Position numbers and translations under genes: made by a program. 64,000 nucleotides of DNA, taken from positions 1 through 64,000 of the forward strand of contig JAKAXB010000002.1 of NCBI GenBank assembly GCA_021816765.1, read 5' to 3'. The notes below the pieces were generated by a model. It was given only the letters and a program-made list of their open reading frames with translations. It was not told the DNA's origin and did not search any database. Source of the stretch: Natronospirales bacterium. GTDB lineage: Bacteria > Pseudomonadota > Gammaproteobacteria > Natronospirales > REEB76. Positions 17,812 through 53,158 of the stretch are shown in pieces; the first letter of the stretch is position 1; every line of letters starts with the position of its first letter.

Positions 17812-19254
17812 TCAATATTTGATGCAGACATTACGCGCCTCGGTAAAAAATCGCATGGCTTCCCAGCCGCCTTCACGGCCAGTGCCGGACTGCTTCATAC
17901 CACCCATGGGCACACGCAGATCACGCAGCATCCAGCAGTTCACCCAGATGAGACCGGCTTCGAGCTGCGCAGCCAGGCGATGACAGCGGGATACGTCACG
18001 GCTCCAGAGTGAAGCGGCCAGACCGTAGGGCGTGCCATTGGCCCAGGCGACGGCTTCGTCTTCTGTGTCAAAGGGAATCAGCGTTACCACCGGACCGAAG
18101 ATTTCCTCCTGGTTGGTGCGGCAATCATAAGGCAGGTTCTCGATGACGGCCGGTTCCATAAACCAGCCCCCGCTGCAGCGGCCGTCCAGGCGCGCGCGCC
18201 GGCCACCGCAAAGGATTTTTCCGCCCTCCTTTTTGGCCAGCTCGATGTAGCCCAATACTTTTTGCAGGTGCGCCTCCGAGATCACCGCACCCTGCGCGGT
18301 GATCTCCTCCAGCGGATCGCCCGGGCTCAGCATCTTCGCGCGAGCCACGAACTCGTCGCGGAAGCGCGCATACAGGCCACGTTCGATGAGGATGCGCGAG
18401 CCGCACAGGCAGATTTCGCCCTGATTGGAAAATGCCGCACGCATGCTTTCCGACACAGTACGTTCGAAGTCGCAGTCGGAAAACACCAGGGTTGGATTCT
18501 TGCCACCCAGTTCCAGGGAAAGTTTCTTGAATTTCGGTGCCGCCCGGCCGGCGATGTCGGCGCCGGTTTTAGTGCCGCCGGTGAAGGAGATGGCCTTCAC
18601 GTCCGGGTGTTCCACCAGCAGCACGCCTGCCTTGGGACCGAGACCCTGCACCACGTTGAGCACCCCCGCCGGGAATCCCGCCTCCATGCAGAGTTCCGAA
18701 AGCAGATACGCCGTCATGGGAGTGAGTTCGGAGGGTTTCGCCACCACGCAGTTGCCGGCGGCCAGCGCCGGTGCGAGTTTCCAGGTAAGCAGATACAGCG
18801 GCAGATTCCAGGGGGAGATGCAGCCCACTACGCCGAGCGGCGAGCGCAGAGTGTAATTGATGGCTCCGGATTCCATGGCATGGGATTCGCTGGCGAATTG
18901 GCTGGCAGCGGCGGCGAAGTAGCGCAGATTGGCCACGGCCCGCGGGATATCCAGACTGCGCGCGAGAGCGATGGGTTTGCCGGTGTCCACGCTTTCAGCG
19001 CGAGCCAATTTTTCCAGATCCCGCTCCACCAGGGCGGCAAGTTTGTGCAGCCATTCGCCGCGTTTCGCGGCGGATGTGGCGGACCATGCCGGAAAGGCGC
19101 GCTGAGCGGCGGCCACGGCGTTATCCATGTCGGTCTTGTGAGAATCGGGAATGCGCGCGTATGCCTTACCCGTCGCCGGTTCGAAATCCTCCAGCCAGCC
19201 GCCGGAGGCGGCAGGCGTGAGTTTACCGTCTATATAGTTGGCCAGTTTCTGCAT
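17812..19254 (-). CDS. 2-aminomuconate semialdehyde dehydrogenase (2-hydroxymuconate semialdehyde dehydrogenase type)
   Basis: A 480-residue NAD-dependent aldehyde dehydrogenase. GCISPWNLPLYLLTWKLAPA and FTGGTKTG shape the NAD site; the general base Glu is in LELGGKN and the catalytic Cys in NQGEICLCGSR. It resembles the aminomuconate/hydroxymuconate semialdehyde dehydrogenase group, and the operon predicts 2-aminomuconate semialdehyde as substrate. It is the first gene of the seven-gene minus-strand kynurenine operon, whose promoter should lie in 19255-19418. No regulator gene is adjacent. Confidence 0.9.
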   Translation of the reverse strand: MQKLANYIDGKLTPAASGGWLEDFEPATGKAYARIPDSHKTDMDNAVAAAQRAFPAWSATSAAKRGEWLHKLAALVERDLEKLARAESVDTGKPIALARSLDIPRAVANLRYFAAAASQFASESHAMESGAINYTLRSPLGVVGCISPWNLPLYLLTWKLAPALAAGNCVVAKPSELTPMTAYLLSELCMEAGFPAGVLNVVQGLGPKAGVLLVEHPDVKAISFTGGTKTGADIAGRAAPKFKKLSLELGGKNPTLVFSDCDFERTVSESMRAAFSNQGEICLCGSRILIERGLYARFRDEFVARAKMLSPGDPLEEITAQGAVISEAHLQKVLGYIELAKKEGGKILCGGRRARLDGRCSGGWFMEPAVIENLPYDCRTNQEEIFGPVVTLIPFDTEDEAVAWANGTPYGLAASLWSRDVSRCHRLAAQLEAGLIWVNCWMLRDLRVPMGGMKQSGTGREGGWEAMRFFTEARNVCIKY

Positions 19255-19418
19255 GTCACAGGCTCTGAACGCGGCAGGGTATTCAACTTGTTTTCGCAGC
19301 GCGCCGCCCCAGTGTCACGCCGCCGTTCCGGGCAAGCACATGCTCGTCATGAAGATCGCTGCTGAGAATCGGGTCTGGCATAACCGCTGTCACCATTATC
19401 AAGAGATACGCACAAAGC

Positions 19419-20261
19419 TCAGTTGCCTGTCTCCGGCCGCCGTGCGCCGGAGCAGTCCACGCAATACCAGCCGCCGCTGTCGTCGCCGTCGAGCCGCAAG
19501 GCCGAGAGCCGTCCGCCCCACACGCAACCCGTGTCCAGCGGATAGATATTCTGGCCCTTTATTTCACCGAGCGTGGACCAGTGACCGAAGAGGATATACA
19601 GACCGGCGCTGGCGCGCCCCGGTACTTCAAACCAGGGCATGAAGCCCGCCGGCTGGGTACCCGGCGCACCTTTGCAGGCGAGATCGAGTTCACCTTCCAG
19701 AGAACAGTAACGCAGGCGTGTGAAACAGTTCACGATGAAGCGCAGCCGTTCCATGCCTGAAAGCTCCGCTGACCAGCGGCGCGGCTGGTCGCCGTACATT
19801 TGCGTGAAGAATCCCGGATAATCGGCTGCGCGCAGCGCAGCTTCCAGTTCCCGTGCGCAGGCAGTGGCGATGGCAAGATCCCACTGGGGCGGCAGGCCGG
19901 CATGAATAAGCGTATAGCCCAGCGGTGCATCGTGATGCAGCAGCGGACGCTGACGCAGCCAGTGCAACAGCTCATCGCGATCCGGGGCGGCGAGAATGGC
20001 ATCGAGTGTATCTGCGGGCTTGTGCTGGTGCACACCTTCGGCAAGGGCCAGCAGGTGCAGATCATGGTTGCCGAGCACACACACGGCGCGCTCGCCCAGG
20101 CTTTTCACGAAACGCAGGGTTTCCAGTGACTTGGGGCCGCGGTTCACGAGGTCGCCGGTGAACCAGAGATGGTCTTCCGCAGGATTGAAGTCGAGTCGTT
20201 CCAGCAGCCGGCGCAGATCGTCGTAGCAGCCCTGGATGTCGCCAATAGCGAAAATGGCCAT
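19419..20261 (-). CDS. apaH: Bis(5'-nucleosyl)-tetraphosphatase, symmetrical
   Basis: A 280-residue metallophosphatase hydrolysing Ap4A to two ADP. It has the full metallophosphoesterase series: GDIQGC (residues 7-12), GDLVNRGP, GNHD, and later HAGLPPQWD and FGHWST. Length agrees with E. coli ApaH (280 aa). It follows apaG on the same strand, the conserved gammaproteobacterial order, and is the last gene of the lptD-surA-pdxA-rsmA-apaG-apaH series. Confidence 0.96.
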   Translation of the reverse strand: MAIFAIGDIQGCYDDLRRLLERLDFNPAEDHLWFTGDLVNRGPKSLETLRFVKSLGERAVCVLGNHDLHLLALAEGVHQHKPADTLDAILAAPDRDELLHWLRQRPLLHHDAPLGYTLIHAGLPPQWDLAIATACARELEAALRAADYPGFFTQMYGDQPRRWSAELSGMERLRFIVNCFTRLRYCSLEGELDLACKGAPGTQPAGFMPWFEVPGRASAGLYILFGHWSTLGEIKGQNIYPLDTGCVWGGRLSALRLDGDDSGGWYCVDCSGARRPETGN

Positions 20262-27263: not shown

Positions 27264-28256
27264 GTGTCGCAGAGGCTTGGGAAACTGCAAGCCTGGGTGG
27301 CGGGGGCGCTGCGGGTTCCGGCGGTGACGCTGGAAGCCGCTTCGGAGGATGCCAGCTTTCGGCGCTATTTCCGCGCCTATGCCGACAGGCGTTCTTATAT
27401 TGTCATGGATGCGCCGTCCCCCCGGGAGGACTGCCGCCCCTTCGTGCGTATTGCCGGGCTGCTGCAAGACGCGGGTGTGCATGTGCCCGAAATACTCGCC
27501 CAGGATCTGCAGCGGGGATTCCTGCTGCTCAGCGATCTGGGACGCCAGACCTACCTCGATGTGCTCAACAAAGACAATGCCGATGCGCTGTTTGCCGACG
27601 CCATTGCGGCGCTGATTCGATGGCAGCAGGCCAGCCGGGCTGATGCGCTGCCACCCTACGACCGTGCTCTGCTGAAACGCGAACTCAATCTGTTTCCCGA
27701 TTGGTACGTAGCGCGTCATCTGCATATCGCATTCACAGTGACAGAACGTGAAACTCTGGAATCCAGCTTCACGCTGCTGGAGAACAGCGCGCTGGAGCAG
27801 CCCCAAGTCTATGTACATCGTGACTACATGCCCCGCAATCTCATGCTGAGCGCGCCCAACCCCGGCGTGCTGGATTTCCAGGACGCGGTGTATGGTCCTA
27901 TCACCTACGATGTGGCATCGCTGTTCAAGGACGCTTTTATTTCCTGGGAGGAACGGCAGATAAGCGCCTGGCGCAGGCAATACTGGCAACAGGCCAGACG
28001 AGTCGGCCTGCCGGTACAGGAGTTCTCTGCATTCGAGCGTGCCTGCGACTGGATGGGCATGCAACGGCATCTCAAGGTACTGGGCATCTTTGCCCGTATC
28101 CACTATCGCGACGGCAAGCCGGACTATCTCAAAGACACGCCGCGGTTTCTGCGCTATGTGCGTGAGACAGGCAGGCTTTATCAGGAATTTATGCCGCTCC
28201 TGAAACTGCTGGATGCGCTGGAAAGCCGCGCATCACAAATGGTAACGGCAACATGA
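27264..28256 (+). CDS. amgK: N-acetylmuramate/N-acetylglucosamine kinase AmgK
   Basis: A 330-residue aminoglycoside-phosphotransferase-fold kinase. It has ASFRRYFRA near the N-terminus, the catalytic loop VHRDYMPRNLML and metal-binding LDFQDAVYGP. AmgK phosphorylates MurNAc at the anomeric position in the peptidoglycan-recycling route that bypasses de novo UDP-MurNAc synthesis (known from Pseudomonas). GTG start with GGGAGAGC upstream. Its stop overlaps the murU start (ATGA), and its location divergent from lptD matches Pseudomonas. Confidence 0.92.
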   Translation: MSQRLGKLQAWVAGALRVPAVTLEAASEDASFRRYFRAYADRRSYIVMDAPSPREDCRPFVRIAGLLQDAGVHVPEILAQDLQRGFLLLSDLGRQTYLDVLNKDNADALFADAIAALIRWQQASRADALPPYDRALLKRELNLFPDWYVARHLHIAFTVTERETLESSFTLLENSALEQPQVYVHRDYMPRNLMLSAPNPGVLDFQDAVYGPITYDVASLFKDAFISWEERQISAWRRQYWQQARRVGLPVQEFSAFERACDWMGMQRHLKVLGIFARIHYRDGKPDYLKDTPRFLRYVRETGRLYQEFMPLLKLLDALESRASQMVTAT

Positions 28257-28909
28257 AGGCGATGATTCTGGCGGCGGGCCGTGGCGAGCGTTTGCGGCCG
28301 TTGACCGACACCACGCCGAAACCCCTGCTTGAAATCCAGGGCCGACCTCTCATCGTGCGGCACCTGGAGCGGCTGCATGCCGCGGGTTTAACGGATATCG
28401 TGATCAACCTCTCCTGGCTGGCGGACAAGATTAAAGGGTATCTCGGCGATGGCTCACGCTACGGCGTGCGCATCCGCTATTCCGAGGAAGTTGACGGGCC
28501 GCTGGAAACCGGTGGTGGGATTCTGAACGCCTTGCCGCTGCTGGGCGAGAATCCTTTCCTGGTAATCAACGGCGACATCTACACTGATTTCCCCTTTCAG
28601 ACCCTGCAATCCGCGCTCAAGCACGGCGATCTCGCCCACCTTGTGATGCTGGAGAATCCGCCTCACCACCCACGGGGGGATTTTCATCTCTCCGCCGATG
28701 GCCGCCTGCACGCCGACGGTACACCACGGCTTACCTACAGCGGCATCGGCGTGCATCATCCCGCATTCTTCAAGGACTGCAGCCCCGGAAAGTTTCCCAT
28801 GCTGCCGTGGTGGCGGGAAGCAATGCGGTCTGGAAGGGTAAGTGGTCAGTGGTATTCGGGTCTATGGAAAGATGTTGGCACGATTGAAGCATTGCGCGGT
28901 GTTGTCTGA
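28253..28909 (+). CDS. murU: N-acetylmuramate alpha-1-phosphate uridylyltransferase MurU
   Basis: A 218-residue nucleotidyltransferase making UDP-MurNAc from MurNAc-1-phosphate and UTP. The N-terminal signature MILAAGRGERLRPLTDTTPK, the PKPLLEI segment and INGDIYTD (metal-binding Asp) are present, with ETGGGILNALP typical of MurU. Overlap with amgK implies coupled translation, so both steps of the recycling shortcut are encoded together. Confidence 0.93.
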   Translation: MKAMILAAGRGERLRPLTDTTPKPLLEIQGRPLIVRHLERLHAAGLTDIVINLSWLADKIKGYLGDGSRYGVRIRYSEEVDGPLETGGGILNALPLLGENPFLVINGDIYTDFPFQTLQSALKHGDLAHLVMLENPPHHPRGDFHLSADGRLHADGTPRLTYSGIGVHHPAFFKDCSPGKFPMLPWWREAMRSGRVSGQWYSGLWKDVGTIEALRGVV

Positions 28910-28972: not shown

Positions 28973-30679
28973 TCAATATCGCAGGATGGCCGAGCCCAGA
29001 TAGGGGCTCGCCGCGTCGGTGCCAATCAGCACAAATCCGCCCGGTGTTACCGGATAAATGGCGAAAGGCGAGCTGCCCCCCCCGCTGCTGATGAGTATGG
29101 CCGTGCCGCGGACACCGCCGCCGTTAAACTGGTAGGTACCCGTCAGGGACAGTGTGGATGGGATGGTGCCATTCAGGTTCTGTATCAGGCTGCCGCTGAG
29201 GTTTCCCTGTCCATCCAGCGCCAGCGTGCCGAGACCCAGGAAAATGGATTTCGGAGCTGTCTGGCTGAATAGGGTAAATCCATAATTCGCATTGAGTGAG
29301 GCATTGTTGAAAGACACACCCGGTTGTTGCGCAGTGATAAGGCCACTCGCCACGATGTTGGAATTTATCGTCATGACTTGCGCTTGGGCAGGGGAATCCA
29401 TGTAAAACACATAGGTTTGCGGGGTATTCGATCCCTGATTGTTGATTGTCAGCGTGCCGCGGCCATTCCCGGAGGAGTCGAAAGCATACGTGCCAGTCGT
29501 GATGATATTTGCAATAGTGCCGGGCGTGTTGATGTCCTCGGTGATGGTTCCGAGACCGCCCTGGCCGTCCGGATTGAATTGTCCGGCCTGGGCATAACCG
29601 GAATTGGGGCTGTTCCCGCCCACAAAGAACACATACCCGCCATTCAGGGAAGCATTACTGAAGGTGACCGGCTGCTGCAGTGAAATGCTGCCGCTCAAAG
29701 GTTGAGAGGGATCGAATGACAGGAACTCCAGATCCGATGCGGATTCCACATAGAAACTGTATGTATGCGTCCCATTGCCGTCGGTGAGGGTCGCAGTACC
29801 ATGATTATTGCCGTCAAATGTGTAAGAGCCTGTCACGGAGGCATTCAAAAGAGGGCCCGGGCCATTCACATCCTCGGTCCCGGTGGTAAATGCGCCCCCG
29901 GTGCTCGCGACGATACGGCCCAGCACGGCGATACTCTGATTCGAGGTGTTTTCACCGGCGAAACTGAACACGTAAGGACCGTTAAGGCTCGTTACGCTGC
30001 CAGCCGTTTGACTCTGCGGGAACAGGCCGCCATCCACCACAGTGTTGTTATCGGTGCGAATGAGGTTCGCCTGGCCGCCGGTTACCAGCACAAACTGAAT
30101 GTTGACGGTTCCCAAAACCGCGGTACCAAGCCCATTGGGGCTGATGTTGTACGTTCCGCTGAATGCAGTCTTCGACGAAACGCTGGAACCATTATTGACG
30201 TCTTCCAGACCATTGCTCAGTTGTCCGGTGCCATTGGCGGTGAATTCGCCGATCGCAGCCCACGGAACCCCGGCATTCAATCCTGACATATTGAATACGT
30301 ATGCACCTTTCAGCGAGGCGTTCGAGTAGCCGATGCTGAGTGTGGCCGTACCCGATTGGCTGGTATGGGCCTGCTCGATGGCGGTGATGGTAACCGCAGC
30401 ACCCGGGGGCGGAAGATCAGGGGCGGTGTACAGGCCGCTGCTGGATATAGTACCGAGGGTGCTGTTGCCGCCGGGGATGCCGTTCACCTGCCAGGTGAAG
30501 GCTGTGCCCCCGTCCACCGCGGTAGCCGACATTTGCTGGGTGGCACCCGCGAGAACCTGGGTACCGGAGGGAGTAACGGTCACGCCGGATGATCCGGATG
30601 AACTCACGGAACCACCTCCGCACGCGGCAAGCATCAGCCAGGCACTCGTCAGGATCAATGATTTGATGAATCGTGACAT
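28973..30679 (-). CDS. Secreted repeat lipoprotein A (Ig-like domain plus four ~110-residue repeats)
   Basis: A 568-residue predicted lipoprotein: lipobox LAAC with Cys20, then GGGS. An Ig-like segment (~32-116) ends in NSTLGTISSSGLYTAP, like bacterial BIG2-type domains. Four repeats of about 110 residues follow, each starting near (N)ASLNGxYVF, passing through GxExxxNGxG...EDxN, then GTYxFxxNGxGTxTL and xYxFYxxS. I do not know its function. The ATG at 30679 has GGGAG eight bases upstream; an ATG six bases earlier is too close. A similar protein (gene at 31847) lies two genes upstream. Repeats of this kind are, as I recall, common in Acidobacteria, which would fit gene transfer. Confidence 0.8.
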   Translation of the reverse strand: MSRFIKSLILTSAWLMLAACGGGSVSSSGSSGVTVTPSGTQVLAGATQQMSATAVDGGTAFTWQVNGIPGGNSTLGTISSSGLYTAPDLPPPGAAVTITAIEQAHTSQSGTATLSIGYSNASLKGAYVFNMSGLNAGVPWAAIGEFTANGTGQLSNGLEDVNNGSSVSSKTAFSGTYNISPNGLGTAVLGTVNIQFVLVTGGQANLIRTDNNTVVDGGLFPQSQTAGSVTSLNGPYVFSFAGENTSNQSIAVLGRIVASTGGAFTTGTEDVNGPGPLLNASVTGSYTFDGNNHGTATLTDGNGTHTYSFYVESASDLEFLSFDPSQPLSGSISLQQPVTFSNASLNGGYVFFVGGNSPNSGYAQAGQFNPDGQGGLGTITEDINTPGTIANIITTGTYAFDSSGNGRGTLTINNQGSNTPQTYVFYMDSPAQAQVMTINSNIVASGLITAQQPGVSFNNASLNANYGFTLFSQTAPKSIFLGLGTLALDGQGNLSGSLIQNLNGTIPSTLSLTGTYQFNGGGVRGTAILISSGGGSSPFAIYPVTPGGFVLIGTDAASPYLGSAILRY

Positions 30680-30863
30680 GACCATATCTCCCTGCCTCGG
30701 CGGCTACGCATATTAGCCTGAACCTGTGGCGGCGTCACGCTGCTTGCTGGAGACGGGTACACGCGAGGGAAGTCTTGGCTGTGAGAAATGGAACGGGCGG
30801 AAGCCGCGAGAGAGCGGTGTGCTCATTCGCTGGAGGTGTTCACGTATAAATCTGCGCGCGCTG

Positions 30864-31670
30864 TCACAATTTGAGTTCCACTGTATAGGCCAGGTTCAAA
30901 GCGAATATCCCCAGGTAAAGATAGGTCCCGGCGGCACCGCCGAATGCCCCTGAGACATCTTTTGAGCTCTCGTAGGCCAAACCGTTCATGACACCCGGGC
31001 AGCCTTTTCCGCTGGTGAGATAGTTCACATAGAACAGGTTTGTACCCGGATCCTGCTGCACGAGGCTGCCGCTGATGCTGCAACCGTAGCCATCATTGCC
31101 GCTGAACACTCCGTTAGCATTGACTGTTATGGACACCGAAGTGGAAGCCTTGCCGACGTAATAGCCATTCCATTGCCCCTGCAAACCCGTGAGAGACGGG
31201 GTCCCCGCGTAGGGTGTATCGGTATTCAGGGTGAAATTGCCGTCCAGGCCGGTGGAAGTATTGGTGGCGGGATCAATGGAACTGAGGGTCGCTTGCATGC
31301 TGGTGGCAGTTGCAGATGATGTATAAGTCCCGCTTACAGAAAACGTATCAACTTTGTTGCCGTCGGGAAACGTCTGTCCCGGAGGTGCAGTACCGATAAG
31401 GGTGGTGGTAAACGGCGAGCTCTCTGGAACATTTTCCACCAGGAACACATTGCCCTGATTGTCGGCAAAATAGCCGAAACCGGTGGCTGCCACGGCTCCA
31501 TTCACTGCAATCCCGCTGCCGCCGTTCAGGCTGTAGGTTCCGGACCATGGGCCCGGCACGACTTGCAGAATGGCTGTCGTGCCGGGGGAGCTGCTTGAGC
31601 CGCCACCGCAGCCGGCGACCAGGATGCCAATGAAAATCACAACGAAAATCGCGGTCTTCTTCAACATCAT
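30864..31670 (-). CDS. Hypothetical secreted lipoprotein
   Basis: A 268-residue predicted lipoprotein with lipobox LVAGC (Cys21) and a GGGSSSS linker like its two neighbours. Two similar-looking halves are suggested by GPWSGTYSLNGGSG and GQWNGYYVGKASTSV. Two further Cys (YGCSIS and KGCPGV) could form a disulfide. I do not recognise the family. Its sandwiched position between the two repeat lipoproteins, on the same strand, suggests a shared surface role. Start may be either of two consecutive ATG codons. Confidence 0.7.
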   Translation of the reverse strand: MMLKKTAIFVVIFIGILVAGCGGGSSSSPGTTAILQVVPGPWSGTYSLNGGSGIAVNGAVAATGFGYFADNQGNVFLVENVPESSPFTTTLIGTAPPGQTFPDGNKVDTFSVSGTYTSSATATSMQATLSSIDPATNTSTGLDGNFTLNTDTPYAGTPSLTGLQGQWNGYYVGKASTSVSITVNANGVFSGNDGYGCSISGSLVQQDPGTNLFYVNYLTSGKGCPGVMNGLAYESSKDVSGAFGGAAGTYLYLGIFALNLAYTVELKL

Positions 31671-31846
31671 GTGGAATTTTCACTCCTCTGCCTGAGGTGC
31701 ATTATCTGCTACTTTGAGGACTCTCGCCTGCAATGCACTTGAAGGCGGAAAACATTTATTAAAGTCGCTTAGCCGTCCATGGGACACTTGCCCAAGTATC
31801 AGCTCTGCCGCTGGATATGGATGAATTGCATGATACCGGCATCCGC

Positions 31847-33559
31847 CTAGTACTGGCTTACCAGCGTACCAACCATGGGTGAGCCGCTTTCATCCAGTAG
31901 AATGACCGCGTTATTGGATATGGGATACAAGGCGAAATTCGTGTTTACTCCGCCATTGGTGGTCAGGGTGGCCACGCCCCGCGTGGACGTGGTACTCGTC
32001 CCCACGGTTACCGCATAGACCCCGGTGACAGACAGCTCGCTCGAGATCGTGCCATTGTTACTGATGGTTTCGAAGCCGGCCAGCGCGCCGCTGCCATTCA
32101 AGGTGAGCCGGCCGACCGCCGACGAAGGGGAAGCGACGCCGGCGGGGCTTGCCAGGAGCAGGGTGTAATATCCGCTCAGGCTGGAAGTGGAAAAACCGCC
32201 GGTTTGGAAAAACATCTGCCCGATCGCATTGATACCGCTGTCGCTGGTCAGCACGAATGCAGTGTTGGGCGTAATCAGATAATACACGTAGTTGGTTGTG
32301 CCGCTGCTGCCGGTAAGTGCGAGGGTGCCGCGCCCCGATGCGCTGCTGGTAAAGCTGCCGATCAGCGTGGCGTTGGTGGAAATGTTGCCCGCGTTATTGA
32401 TGTCATCAGTCCCACTATTGACAGTACCGCTGTTGGTGGTACTCGTGGTAAAGCCACCCGCTGCACCGTACGCCGCCGTCCCGCTCATCCCGACGACAGA
32501 AAACACATATCCTCCCGCCAGGACGGTGGTGGAGATCACATCCTGCTGCTGAAGCGCGCTGCCACTTAAATGCCCCGAGGTATCGGTCTCGATGAACTGA
32601 AGTTGGGTGGGGGAGACAATATAAAAACTGTAGGTGCGGGTGCCGGTGGAGTCCGTGAAACTGGCGGTACCACGGCCGTTGCTGCCGATGCTGTAAGAGC
32701 CGTTAAAAGGCTGGTTGGATGCTGTGCCGCCGGCATTGATGTCTTCTTCGGCACTGGTAAAGGCAGTGGATCCATTGGTCACGAATATGCCGATAACATT
32801 CAGAAGTTTGTCTGACTGATCGGTTCCCGTAAAATCGAAGACATAAGGCGCATTCAGGCTGGTCAGTGTCAGGGCTGTAGGCAGTTGTGAATAAAACAAA
32901 CCGCTTGCGACAGCGCCGTTGTCAGTGCGTATGGCTACGGCCTGTCCTTGTGTATTCAGGGTGAAGGTTACATTGACGCTCCCCTGAGTGCTGGTGAAGG
33001 TGGCGGTTCCCTGTCCATTGGCGTCAATGAAATAGATGCCGCTGAAAGGCAGCGCCTGCGAAATGCCGGAAGGTCCGTTGATATCCTCAAGACCATTGCT
33101 GATGGTGCCGTTATTTGCGGTAAAGCTGCCTGTGGCAGCCCACGGACCGCCGGCCTGCGTGCCGCTCAGGGTGAACACATAGTTGCCGTTCAGCGAAGCA
33201 TTGGCGAAGGTAATACTGATGATGATGGAGGTGCTGATTACTGGGTAGGCCTGGGGAGCGGCGCTGATGACGACACTCCCATTCTGCGGAGGCGTATTGG
33301 GCGCTGTGTAGAGGCCCTGTGGGGAGATGGTTCCAGTGGTACTGTTACCACCGGGGATGTTATTCACATACCACAGGACGGTGGTGTTGCTGTTGCCGGT
33401 GACGATGGCGCTCATCTGCAACGTCGTGCCTGCGGTAATGGTGGTGGCCTCAGGCGTAACCAGTGCAATCGTGGGATTGCTAATCTGTGAGCTGCCGCCA
33501 CCGCATCCTGCGAGGATGAGCAAAAAAAGCAATGGCGATTGTTTTAGGATTGAAGTCAT
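31847..33559 (-). CDS. Secreted repeat lipoprotein B, paralogue of lipoprotein A
   Basis: A 570-residue predicted lipoprotein with lipobox ILAGC (Cys19) and GGGSS. It shares the architecture of lipoprotein A: an Ig-like segment containing NNIPGGNSTTGTISPQGLY, then four ~110-residue repeats beginning at ANASLNGNYVF, LTSLNAPYVF, TTVLAGGYVF and STSSLSGYYTL. The EDIN motif and GRGTxxxT segments also match. Divergence between the copies is clear, so the duplication is not recent. AGGAGT lies ten bases before the ATG. Function unknown. Confidence 0.8.
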   Translation of the reverse strand: MTSILKQSPLLFLLILAGCGGGSSQISNPTIALVTPEATTITAGTTLQMSAIVTGNSNTTVLWYVNNIPGGNSTTGTISPQGLYTAPNTPPQNGSVVISAAPQAYPVISTSIIISITFANASLNGNYVFTLSGTQAGGPWAATGSFTANNGTISNGLEDINGPSGISQALPFSGIYFIDANGQGTATFTSTQGSVNVTFTLNTQGQAVAIRTDNGAVASGLFYSQLPTALTLTSLNAPYVFDFTGTDQSDKLLNVIGIFVTNGSTAFTSAEEDINAGGTASNQPFNGSYSIGSNGRGTASFTDSTGTRTYSFYIVSPTQLQFIETDTSGHLSGSALQQQDVISTTVLAGGYVFSVVGMSGTAAYGAAGGFTTSTTNSGTVNSGTDDINNAGNISTNATLIGSFTSSASGRGTLALTGSSGTTNYVYYLITPNTAFVLTSDSGINAIGQMFFQTGGFSTSSLSGYYTLLLASPAGVASPSSAVGRLTLNGSGALAGFETISNNGTISSELSVTGVYAVTVGTSTTSTRGVATLTTNGGVNTNFALYPISNNAVILLDESGSPMVGTLVSQY

Positions 33560-33683: not shown

Positions 33684-34658
33684 TCAAGCAATGTTCATCA
33701 ATCCCTCGGCCTGTCTGTCGGCATGGTAGGACGATCGTACCAGGGCACCGCTGGCCACATGCTGGAATCCCAGCCGGTAACCCTGGAGTTCAATTTCCCT
33801 GAATTCCTCCGGCGTCACATAGCGCACCACCGGGTGGTGGAATTTGCTGGGCTGGAGGTATTGCCCCACCGTGAGCATGTCCACGTCATGGGTGCGCAGG
33901 TCGTGCATTACCGCGAAAATCTCCGGCAATTCCTCGCCCAAGCCCAGCATGATACCCGACTTCGTGATGATGTCCGGATGCATTTCCTTGAAACGCCTGA
34001 GCAGCGTGAGTGAATGCTGATAATCGGATCCGGGACGCACTTCACGATAGATGCGCGGTACGGTTTCGAGATTGTGGTTGAACACGTCCGGCGGCGCGTC
34101 ATTGATAAGCGCCAGTGCCACCTCCATGCGGCCGCGGAAATCCGGTACCAGCACCTCGATCCTGGTCTCCGGGCTCCACTTGCGGATGGCACGGATACAG
34201 GCCGCGAAATGTCCGGCGCCGCCGTCGCGCAGATCATCGCGATCCACGGAAGTCACCACCACGTAGCCCAGCCCCATGGCTTGGATGGTCCTGGCGAGAT
34301 TGACAGGCTCCTCCGCATCCAGCGCGCCGGGGCGGCCGTGGGCCACGTCGCAGAAGGTGCAGCGGCGTGTGCAGATATCACCCAGGATCATGAAGGTGGC
34401 GGTACCCTTGCCGAAGCATTCGCCGAGGTTGGGGCAGGAGGCCTCCTCGCACACGGTGTGCAGGTGATTTTCCCGCAGGATTTGCTTCAGCCGCGCCACT
34501 TCCGGGGTGGCCGGCGAACGCACCCTGATCCAGGACGGCTTGCGCAACGGCACGAGTGTGGCTTCAATCTTTACCGGGATACGCGCCATTTTTTCGGCGG
34601 CGCTGAGCTTCTTGCCGGGTTCGAGTCTTGGGCGCGCAATGGCGGGGGAATCACTCAC
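33684..34658 (-). CDS. lipA: Lipoyl synthase
   Basis: A 324-residue radical SAM enzyme inserting two sulfurs into octanoyl groups on lipoyl domains. Both Fe-S clusters are visible: the auxiliary cluster motif [12 protein letters not shown] and the radical SAM motif CTRRCTFC. The C-terminal RSSYHA supplies the conserved serine ligand. It begins 9 bases after lipB ends, in one operon with ybeD and dat. Confidence 0.97.
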
Positions 34659-50551: not shown

Positions 50552-50698
50552 CAAATGCCTCACGCGGCATCGCAGGTTGCCCTTCATAAGACATTGATAT
50601 ATAAATCCTTTGGGGTCTGGCCCGATTCGCCCGGAGTGTAATAATGAAGCGCGCATCGTTATTGGAATATCGTAGCGTGCGGTCCATTTAATGTTAGA
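50552..50698 (+). repeat. attI/Pc-like module, copy 1
   Basis: About 145 bases, repeated at 53660-53830, and ending exactly at the core site GTTAGAG that opens the restriction-modification cassette. The two copies agree closely from CGCAGGTTGCCC through CGGTCCATTTA, with a few substitutions; copy 2 has 24 extra bases near its left end. Each copy has a promoter-like sequence and a short hairpin (here CGTTATT/AATATCG, one mismatch). Because both copies lie on the entry side of a cassette, I read it as an attI-like insertion platform; no integrase gene is nearby. Confidence 0.6.
50577..50605 (+). promoter_or_regulatory. Candidate cassette promoter (Pc-like), copy 1
   Basis: TTGCCC at 50577-50582 and TATAAA at 50600-50605 with a 17-base spacer, pointing into the methyltransferase gene. 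The same pair with the same spacing occurs in copy 2. Integron Pc promoters occupy this kind of place upstream of the first cassette. Confidence 0.5.
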
Positions 50699-50720
50699 GC
50701 GCAGAACAGGAGACGATCGA

Positions 50721-52202
50721 TTGCTGCCAGACATTGAACAAGCCCGGTTGCGGTTATCCAGGGACACGGACGCGAAGAAGAAATCGCAGTTCGGCCAATT
50801 TCTGACGCCAGCAGGAACTGCGACCTTTATGGCCGGGCTTTTCCCACCTGCCGATGGTATCTGCCGCCTGCTTGATGCAGGCGCCGGCATTGGCTCGCTT
50901 GCTGCGGCCTTTCTAGAGCGCTGGTATTCCGGCGGTCTTCGTTTCCAGCGCGTGGAACTCGATGCTTTCGAGATCGATGCTTCTTTGCACTCCCAGCTGG
51001 CTCAGACATTGTCGAAGTACCGCAGCGACACGTTTTCAGCGAAGGTGCATGGTGACGATTTCATACATGTCGCCGCGGACGCGCTTTCCGGCGGCCTGTT
51101 CGCAAAATCACTCCCAAGATACAGCCACGCCATCCTTAATCCACCCTACAAGAAGATAAGCAGCGGTTCAGCGCACCGGCTGGCTCTGCGTCGCGTCGGT
51201 ATCGAGACGGTAAACCTATATTCAGCCTTTGTGGCGCTGACCGTGGCGCAGGCTGCGCCCGGTGGGCAGATCGTGGCGATCATCCCACGCAGCTTCTGCA
51301 ACGGGCCGTATTACCGCCCATTCCGTAACTTCATGCTTGAACGCGCAGCCATCCGACACATGCACCTGTTCGAGTCACGCAGCAAGGCTTTCAAGGATGA
51401 CGCGGTTCTTCAGGAGAACATCATTATTCGTCTTGAATGCGGCACGCAGCAGGGGCCTGTGACGATCTCGACTTCGACCGATGACACCTTCTCCGACCTT
51501 ACCGCCCACGAGCATCCATTCGAGCGGATCGTATTTCCGGACGACCCGGAGCGGTTTATTCACGTGCCCACGTCGCCCGAGAAGAATGCCATTGAATTAC
51601 TTCCAGCTATCCGGTACACGCTGATTAACCTTGGCATCAAGGTATCGACCGGGCCAGTAGTTGATTTCCGACTGAAGGAGCATCTTCGCGATATGCCGGG
51701 GCCGAGCACTGTGCCCTTACTCTATCCCGGCCATTTCACCAGCGGCGGCACTACATGGCCCATCGAGGGCATGAAGAAGCCAAACGCCATCGAATGCAAT
51801 GCCGACACTGAAAAGTGGCTCTACCCGAGTGGCTTTTACTGCGTGGTGCGGCGCTTCTCATCCAAGGAAGAAACACGTCGGATAGTGGCGAGCGTGGTCG
51901 ACCCCAACGCATTCGGTGACATGCCCGTGCTGGGGTTCGAAAACCATCTGAACGTCTTCCACGAGAACAAGCGTGGCTTGCCGCCGGCGCTGGCCCATGG
52001 GCTCACCGTGTTTCTGAACACGACCGCAGTTGACGAGGTGTTCCGTCGTTTCAATGGCCATACGCAGGTGAACGCAACCGACCTTACGCTCATGAAGTAT
52101 CCCAGCCGCGATGTCCTTACTCAGTTGGGCGAATGGGCTATGCAACAAGGGCAACTCACGCAGAGCATGATAGACGACAAGCTTGGAGCCTTGGCGGCAT
52201 GA
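50721..52202 (+). CDS. Type II DNA adenine methyltransferase, PstI/BsuBI-like
   Basis: A 493-residue N6-adenine methyltransferase. Motif X-like FGQFLTP, SAM-binding LLDAGAGIGSL and catalytic NPPY (AILNPPYKKI) appear in gamma-class order. Length is near M.PstI and M.BsuBI (about 500 aa), whose site is CTGCAG; specificity is inferred from its partner nuclease. I prefer TTG at 50721, seven bases after AGGAGA. The in-frame ATG at 50691 starts two bases outside the cassette boundary, so it would be lost on cassette movement. Its stop overlaps the nuclease start (ATGA). Confidence 0.88.
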   Translation: MLPDIEQARLRLSRDTDAKKKSQFGQFLTPAGTATFMAGLFPPADGICRLLDAGAGIGSLAAAFLERWYSGGLRFQRVELDAFEIDASLHSQLAQTLSKYRSDTFSAKVHGDDFIHVAADALSGGLFAKSLPRYSHAILNPPYKKISSGSAHRLALRRVGIETVNLYSAFVALTVAQAAPGGQIVAIIPRSFCNGPYYRPFRNFMLERAAIRHMHLFESRSKAFKDDAVLQENIIIRLECGTQQGPVTISTSTDDTFSDLTAHEHPFERIVFPDDPERFIHVPTSPEKNAIELLPAIRYTLINLGIKVSTGPVVDFRLKEHLRDMPGPSTVPLLYPGHFTSGGTTWPIEGMKKPNAIECNADTEKWLYPSGFYCVVRRFSSKEETRRIVASVVDPNAFGDMPVLGFENHLNVFHENKRGLPPALAHGLTVFLNTTAVDEVFRRFNGHTQVNATDLTLMKYPSRDVLTQLGEWAMQQGQLTQSMIDDKLGALAA

Positions 52203-53158
52203 CGACCAGCAAAAAGAGTCGCCACATCAAGGACGCGCATCATATTCTCGTTTCACTTGGGCTACCTCGTGCACAACAGAACGAGCGTTCCGCGCTTTGC
52301 CTGTTGGCGCTGCTCAACCTCACGCCGGGAAAGCCGTGGTCGAAAGCCGAAAATCCACTTATAGGCATTACGCCGATCATGGATTGGGCGCGTGAACACT
52401 ACGACAAGGAATACGCACCGAATACGCGCGAGACCGTCCGCCGCCAGACAATGCATCAATTCTGTAACGCGGGCATTGCAATTTACAACCCGGACCAGTT
52501 CGATCGGCCGGTGAATAGCCCCAAGGCGGTCTATCAGATCGAACCTGCTACTTTGTCCTTGTTACGCACCTTCAGTACGCCCGCTTGGCATGATGCGCTC
52601 ACGGACTATTTGGCCGAACGTGAGACGCTGGTTGCCAGCTACGCCAAGGAGCGTGAGCAGAACCGGATTCCGGTGAAGATCGCACCGGGGAAAGAGATTA
52701 CTCTCAGTCCCGGCGAACACAGTAAACTGATCCGCGCCATAATTGAAAACTTCGCTCCGAGATTTGCGCCCGGTAGCGTGTTGGTTTACGCCGGGGACAC
52801 GGGCGATAAGTGGGGATACTTTAATGCCCGCCTGCTAGCCGAGTTAGGTGTCGATGTGGAGCCACATGGCAAGATGCCGGATGTAGTGCTTCACTACACT
52901 GCGAAGAACTGGTTGCTGCTGGTCGAATCCGTCACCAGCCACGGGCCGGTAGATGGCAAGCGGCACTCTGAGCTTGCCAAACTTTTTGCCGCCTCAGCCG
53001 CTGGGTTGGTTTATGTCACTGCGTTCCCGAGTCGTACGCTCATGGGCCGCTACCTCGGGGAAATCGCATGGGAAACCGAGGTCTGGGTAGCTGACGCGCC
53101 GTCTCATCTCATTCACTTCAATGGCATGCGTTTCTTGGGTCCGTACAATGCGCCCTAA
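52199..53158 (+). CDS. Type II restriction endonuclease, BsuBI/PstI family
   Basis: A 319-residue nuclease (R.PstI and R.BsuBI are about 320 aa). The C-terminal half has the family core VYAGDTGDKWGYFNARLLAELG, split here by its PD-(D/E)xK-like motif: MPDVVLHY followed by LLLVESVTSHGPVD, then KRHSELAKLFA. The N-terminal half is a helical domain specific to this family. Translation starts in an ATGA overlap with the methyltransferase. The stop codon TAA lies within the attC core GCGCCCTAAC, so the pair fills its cassette to the end. Confidence 0.88.
   Translation: MTTSKKSRHIKDAHHILVSLGLPRAQQNERSALCLLALLNLTPGKPWSKAENPLIGITPIMDWAREHYDKEYAPNTRETVRRQTMHQFCNAGIAIYNPDQFDRPVNSPKAVYQIEPATLSLLRTFSTPAWHDALTDYLAERETLVASYAKEREQNRIPVKIAPGKEITLSPGEHSKLIRAIIENFAPRFAPGSVLVYAGDTGDKWGYFNARLLAELGVDVEPHGKMPDVVLHYTAKNWLLLVESVTSHGPVDGKRHSELAKLFAASAAGLVYVTAFPSRTLMGRYLGEIAWETEVWVADAPSHLIHFNGMRFLGPYNAP

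Follow-up and report, generated by a model that had tools for sequence, protein, structure and literature searches.

Three genes for predicted lipoproteins, here called B, M and A, lie on the minus strand between lipA and a convergent murU (Table 1). They form a small cassette in the 64,000-nucleotide stretch of DNA that was analyzed, hereafter the window. The first-pass annotation had placed three lipoproteins between murU and lipA, all beginning with CGGGS: two of 568-570 residues built on one plan (lipobox, Ig-like segment and four repeats) and, between them, one of 268 residues of another kind. The ORF coordinates bear out the positions, the flanks, the length of M and the lipobox followed by CGGGS in each protein. 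Only the length of 568 residues did not stand, as A and B are both 570 residues long. A and B align from end to end with 44% identity (e-value 3e-110). The GC content of the three genes is 56-57% vs. 60% for the window, and their GC3 is 65-68% vs. 68-77% in the neighboring genes. This comparison, suggested in the same annotation, gives no foreign mark to the cassette genes, which are close to their neighbors in base composition. Promoter and terminator scans were uninformative.

Table 1. Genes and repeats of the lipoprotein cassette and its borders (window coordinates).
Feature	Position	Strand	Description or basis
murU	28253..28909	+	Convergent; downstream border of the cassette
lipoprotein A	28973..30685	-	570 aa; from the N-terminus, a signal peptide whose lipobox ends in LAAC, the CGGGS linker, an Ig-like segment at about residues 35-118 and the four repeats, which reach the C-terminus
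A repeat 4	28976..29314	-	Repeat profile and alignment
A repeat 3	29315..29665	-	Repeat profile and alignment
A repeat 2	29666..30001	-	Repeat alignment; repeat used for the single-repeat structure model
A repeat 1	30002..30331	-	Repeat profile and alignment
lipoprotein M	30864..31670	-	268 aa; one GxWxGxY-type motif per half and two conserved cysteines
lipoprotein B	31847..33559	-	570 aa; plan as in A (lipobox, Ig-like segment, four repeats)
B repeat 4	31850..32197	-	Repeat profile and alignment
B repeat 3	32198..32539	-	Repeat profile and alignment
B repeat 2	32540..32872	-	Repeat profile and alignment
B repeat 1	32873..33211	-	Repeat profile and alignment
lipA	33684..34658	-	Upstream border of the cassette

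The repeats of A and B are about 112 aa long (range 110-117 aa) and form an array C-terminal to the Ig-like segment. A profile built from the A repeats scores the four repeats of B at 90, 88, 47 and 40 bits, and the best of 500 shuffles of B reached 6.7 bits. In the reciprocal test, the B-repeat profile gave 75, 79, 55 and 45 bits on A vs. 12.9 bits for the best shuffle. Together with the end-to-end alignment, these scores far beyond the shuffles uphold the shared plan of the two proteins. Identity is about 21-38% between repeats of one protein and 35-55% between the corresponding repeats of A and B, so that the four-repeat array predates the split between A and B. Gly, Tyr, Leu and Asn account for most of the conserved positions. 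Searches of Pfam, NCBIfam, PHROGs, PADLOC and the PDB sequences returned no match for the repeat and none above cut-off for A, B or M as a whole, and defence and phage families did not match any of the cassette proteins. The Ig-like segment of B reaches 16.3 bits with Ig_3 in Pfam (E 0.014), below the cut-off of 30. The segment of A has no Pfam match, and the matching segment in an acidobacterial relative (L156) passes the I-set cut-off. Small secreted proteins with one or two copies of the repeat occur in scattered Gammaproteobacteria and Acidobacteria (e.g., L173:6764-7204, L169:6391-6879, and L158:7026-7832). Several of this group carry a conserved cysteine pair. The repeat can be a standalone domain.

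M gave no repeat signal (0.8 bits, lower than its own shuffles). A share in the A/B repeat is ruled out for it, as the description of M as a lipoprotein of another kind would have it. The M family is sporadic, occurring in about 3-4% of the sampled genomes in both the host class and the Acidobacteria. M is unrelated to A and B, and assigning it to the same source as A and B is not possible. The sampled genome of the sister genus (G011) holds two tandem relatives of M (L082:6230-8024) beside genes that by sight resemble phage-packaging genes.

Each repeat is probably a small eight-stranded beta-barrel. Structure prediction, which had also been proposed in the first-pass annotation, gave barrel-like models at low to moderate confidence. 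Each repeat has about eight strands when the whole protein is modeled, and a repeat modeled alone has seven. The alignments for these models were drawn from window sequences only, and model confidence is low thereby: AlphaFold2 returned a mean pLDDT of 48 and a pTM of 0.47 for the whole of A (two-sequence alignment) and 63 and 0.58 for A repeat 2 (eight-sequence alignment). The nearest Foldseek matches of the single repeat are eight-stranded designed barrels (TM 0.6-0.73), and U-Omp19 and fatty-acid-binding proteins follow lower down at higher e-values. Matches of the whole protein include TbpB and LbpB, at a TM of only about 0.2. With models and matches of this kind, the barrel fold is a fair inference rather than a result.

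The gene order lipA-B-(M)-(A)-murU is found at the same site across the genus. B is present in all 10 genomes in which the site is assembled, i.e., the genome of the window and nine others; nine genomes show the junction of lipA with B, and G010 shows the side from B to murU. We found lipA in 19 of 20 relatives, and it adjoins B in every genome of the genus that shows the junction. G000, G001, G003, G004, G005, G008 and G010 carry A at the locus, and G006 and G007 lack it there. M occurs in G000, G003, G004, G006, G008 and G010; G001 and G007 are without it. The site is incomplete in G002 and in parts of G005, where contigs end, and G009 is only 52% complete. In G011, which alone represents another genus of the family in the sample, lipA and murU are 45 bp apart with no cassette between them, and the two genes are also adjacent, with an empty site, in a genome of another family (G012). 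Two genomes of one other family (G014 and G016) carry unrelated genes in the gap. By sight, these are an acetyltransferase gene in one genome and a pair of genes for an oxidoreductase and an aminotransferase in the other. The empty site in the sister genus places the entry of the cassette in the ancestor of the genus, and with the empty site in the second family it indicates an acquisition older than the diversification of the genus. The simplest history is a single insertion in that ancestor, after which A or M was lost now and then. A recent transfer is ruled out by the presence of the cassette at one site genus-wide.

In a tree of the four-repeat regions, A and B form two supported clades (100/100 and 100/99) that are adjacent to each other, and the orthologues of A form a genus-wide clade (100/100). 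We place the duplication of A and B before the diversification of the genus. G006 also encodes, at another site, a third and very divergent four-repeat lipoprotein with about 32% identity to A and B (L040:6609-8294).

Between G000 and G001, the dN/dS is 0.28 for A and 0.21 for B, near the 0.18-0.22 of the neighboring genes. Both genes are under purifying selection (dN/dS about 0.2-0.3) and are thus maintained. The dS of B between these genomes is 1.24, and the median over 46 other window ORFs is 0.25. The rise spans the whole gene and ends at lipA in sliding windows. The only other high values in this comparison are in a probable spurious ORF (19238-19642) and in a block at 49.2-57.6 kb. In a second pair, G003 and G005, the dS of A is 1.52 with 0.24-0.59 in the rest of the locus; here the adjoining murU is partly raised too, up to 1.25. 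Whole-gene replacement by recombination is known for surface proteins, and surface recognition proteins are often swapped. The two independent, gene-length dS anomalies fit such replacement, and A and B seem to have been swapped between lineages or species as whole genes by homologous recombination. This apparent exchange is a new finding beyond the first-pass annotation. A high dS in B and A could also have arisen if genes had been duplicated in tandem at the site long ago and different copies had then been lost, and the content of the cassette does vary in the genus (M is missing in G001, and A in G006 and G007). We consider this possible but rather doubtful, however, because every genome has a single copy in each slot, and the locus is collinear and its flanks show normal divergence.

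The block at 49.2-57.6 kb, with a dS of 1.0-1.8 against the sister species, contains a ThiF-family gene, Hsp33 and restriction-modification genes. The latter are a BsuBI/PstI-type restriction endonuclease gene (52133-53158) and, beside it, an Eco57I-type methylase gene (50691-53158 for the pair). The block has the look of a segment that was recombined around an inserted restriction-modification system.

The cleavage site reads Cys-Gly in A, M and B, with Gly, other than Asp, at position +2. By the general Asp+2 sorting rule of E. coli, Cys-Gly after the lipobox is expected to lead to the outer membrane, and the three proteins should be outer-membrane lipoproteins. A and B are probably exposed on the cell surface. 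The two proteins could instead face the periplasm with a role in the envelope, as scaffold or inhibitor in the manner of the small-barrel lipoprotein U-Omp19, the divergence of whole genes being neutral. The barrel matches of the single repeat include U-Omp19, selection on A and B is purifying like that on neighboring envelope genes, and there is no Slam-type exporter above cut-off in the genome. We nevertheless consider a periplasmic role unlikely, since two independent gene-length dS anomalies centered on A or B are more typical of surface-exposed proteins and since the Ig-like part is longer in the acidobacterial relatives, with several domains, which makes it resemble a stalk.

The one match to Slam in the genome lies on another contig and scores below the PF04575 cut-off. 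The protein behind it (L192:1486-2829) combines TPRs with an outer-membrane beta-barrel. A homologue in G006 (L040:3816-5144), 38% identical to it, is encoded about 1.5 kb from the distant A/B-like paralogue of that genome. Both have a Slam-like layout and are below the Slam cut-off. We rejected this protein as a Slam-type exporter for its score and because its family was not found in the cassette carriers G003 (97% complete) and G004 (91% complete).

The first-pass annotation had likened the repeat to one frequent in Acidobacteria and had proposed a survey with a repeat HMM. We searched with a 19-row repeat alignment that contains no acidobacterial row. Matches were found in 28 of 247 sampled acidobacterial genomes vs. 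8 of 369 genomes of the host class and 5 of 349 of the phylum sample. The acidobacterial matches are significant genome-wide, with e-values down to 8.5e-29, and many have two to four tandem copies. Most of the full acidobacterial proteins that we read are lipoproteins that combine one or more Ig-like domains with four C-terminal repeats. The link to Acidobacteria drawn in the first-pass annotation is upheld. Apart from the host, the matches read in the class have one repeat or one and a fragment, mostly in small secreted proteins. Within the sampled Pseudomonadota, tandem repeats occur only in this genus. No relative was found on viral contigs, and plasmids gave one weak match, to a single repeat in a "putative Ig domain-containing protein" of a Granulicella tundricola plasmid. 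A literature search on Acidobacteria, Ig-like lipoproteins and transfer returned nothing specific.

In the four-repeat tree, A and B group with no single acidobacterial protein. This tree is midpoint-rooted without an outgroup, and the direction of transfer thus rests on the distribution, which points to a likely ancient transfer from an Acidobacteria-type source. The possibility of transfer raised in the first-pass annotation therefore stands for an ancient event and falls for a recent one. By that annotation, transfer would be refuted if all three genes stood at this site across the host clade with typical composition; at the level of the genus the cassette is indeed found so, with a composition close to its neighbors. 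Descent of the repeat lipoproteins from the ancestor of the class, with loss everywhere else, would draw on the single-repeat secreted proteins of scattered Gammaproteobacteria and on the distant four-repeat paralogue of G006. It seems improbable, as the genes would have had to be lost in the sister genus, elsewhere in the order and in almost every other genus sampled, and as the matching architecture sits in Acidobacteria.

Taken as a whole, our best explanation, to which we give a probability of about one half, is as follows. An ancestral gene or cassette would have come from an Acidobacteria-type donor into the ancestor of the genus, between lipA and murU. A and B are a paralogous pair that was duplicated before the genus diversified. 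An N-terminal lipid would anchor both proteins in the outer membrane, and the Gly/Ser linker and the one Ig-like domain may serve as a spacer or stalk for four tandem modules of about 112 residues, each probably a small eight-stranded beta-barrel. A and B would most likely stand on the surface, where loops of the barrels could bind an extracellular ligand, a substrate or a neighboring cell, in ligand binding or adhesion. Since then, both have been kept by purifying selection and would at times have been swapped whole between lineages by homologous recombination. That A and B are instead carbohydrate-active or other enzymes is very improbable: GH43-type arabinanase structures are among the weak whole-protein fold matches but at a TM of about 0.16, the conserved positions contain no catalytic set, and no enzyme family matches.

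Acidobacteria are abundant in soils. The repeat is widespread in this phylum, yet none of the curated family libraries searched contains it. Tentatively, it may be a binding module of tandem beta-barrels that has not been described before; abundant in Acidobacteria and moved between phyla, it would form a class of surface recognition lipoproteins exchanged whole between species. The locus is a clean natural experiment for the role of these proteins: the site is empty in the sister genus and the cassette is fixed in the genus, the two paralogues are old, and divergence is anomalous over the length of a gene in two cases. These anomalies point to selection at the cell surface.

The nearest functional analogy to A and B among known systems is with the lipoproteins TbpB, LbpB, HpuA and fHbp, the cargo of Slam/T11SS. 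TbpB and LbpB are among the best whole-protein fold matches noted above. Homology of A or B to Slam/T11SS cargo domains was not found above the Pfam cut-offs or in the PDB sequences. The proteins of this group are lipid-anchored at the N-terminus and combine eight-stranded barrel domains with a beta-rich handle or pedestal, and loops of the barrel and handle domains bind their partners (PMC7857515, PMC12282271). A and B differ in having four similar modules in a row rather than handle and barrel lobes, no sequence match to the group and no Slam above cut-off, and their membership in it is not supported. The predicted fold of the single repeat is like that of calycin-type barrels (fatty-acid-binding proteins and lipocalins), the designed mFAP barrels and U-Omp19, with a TM of up to 0.73 to a designed barrel; no sequence relationship to these was detected, and the repeats of A and B stand in tandem. 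The acidobacterial Ig-domain lipoproteins (e.g., L156, L175, and L176) differ in often having two or more Ig-like domains rather than one, in their scattered loci and in their more divergent repeats. They share with A and B the lipoprotein signal, Ig-like domain(s) with a WxVNG..GG motif and four C-terminal repeats of the same profile. In the order of these parts, from lipobox through Ig-like domain(s) to the four C-terminal repeats, A and B match the acidobacterial plan.
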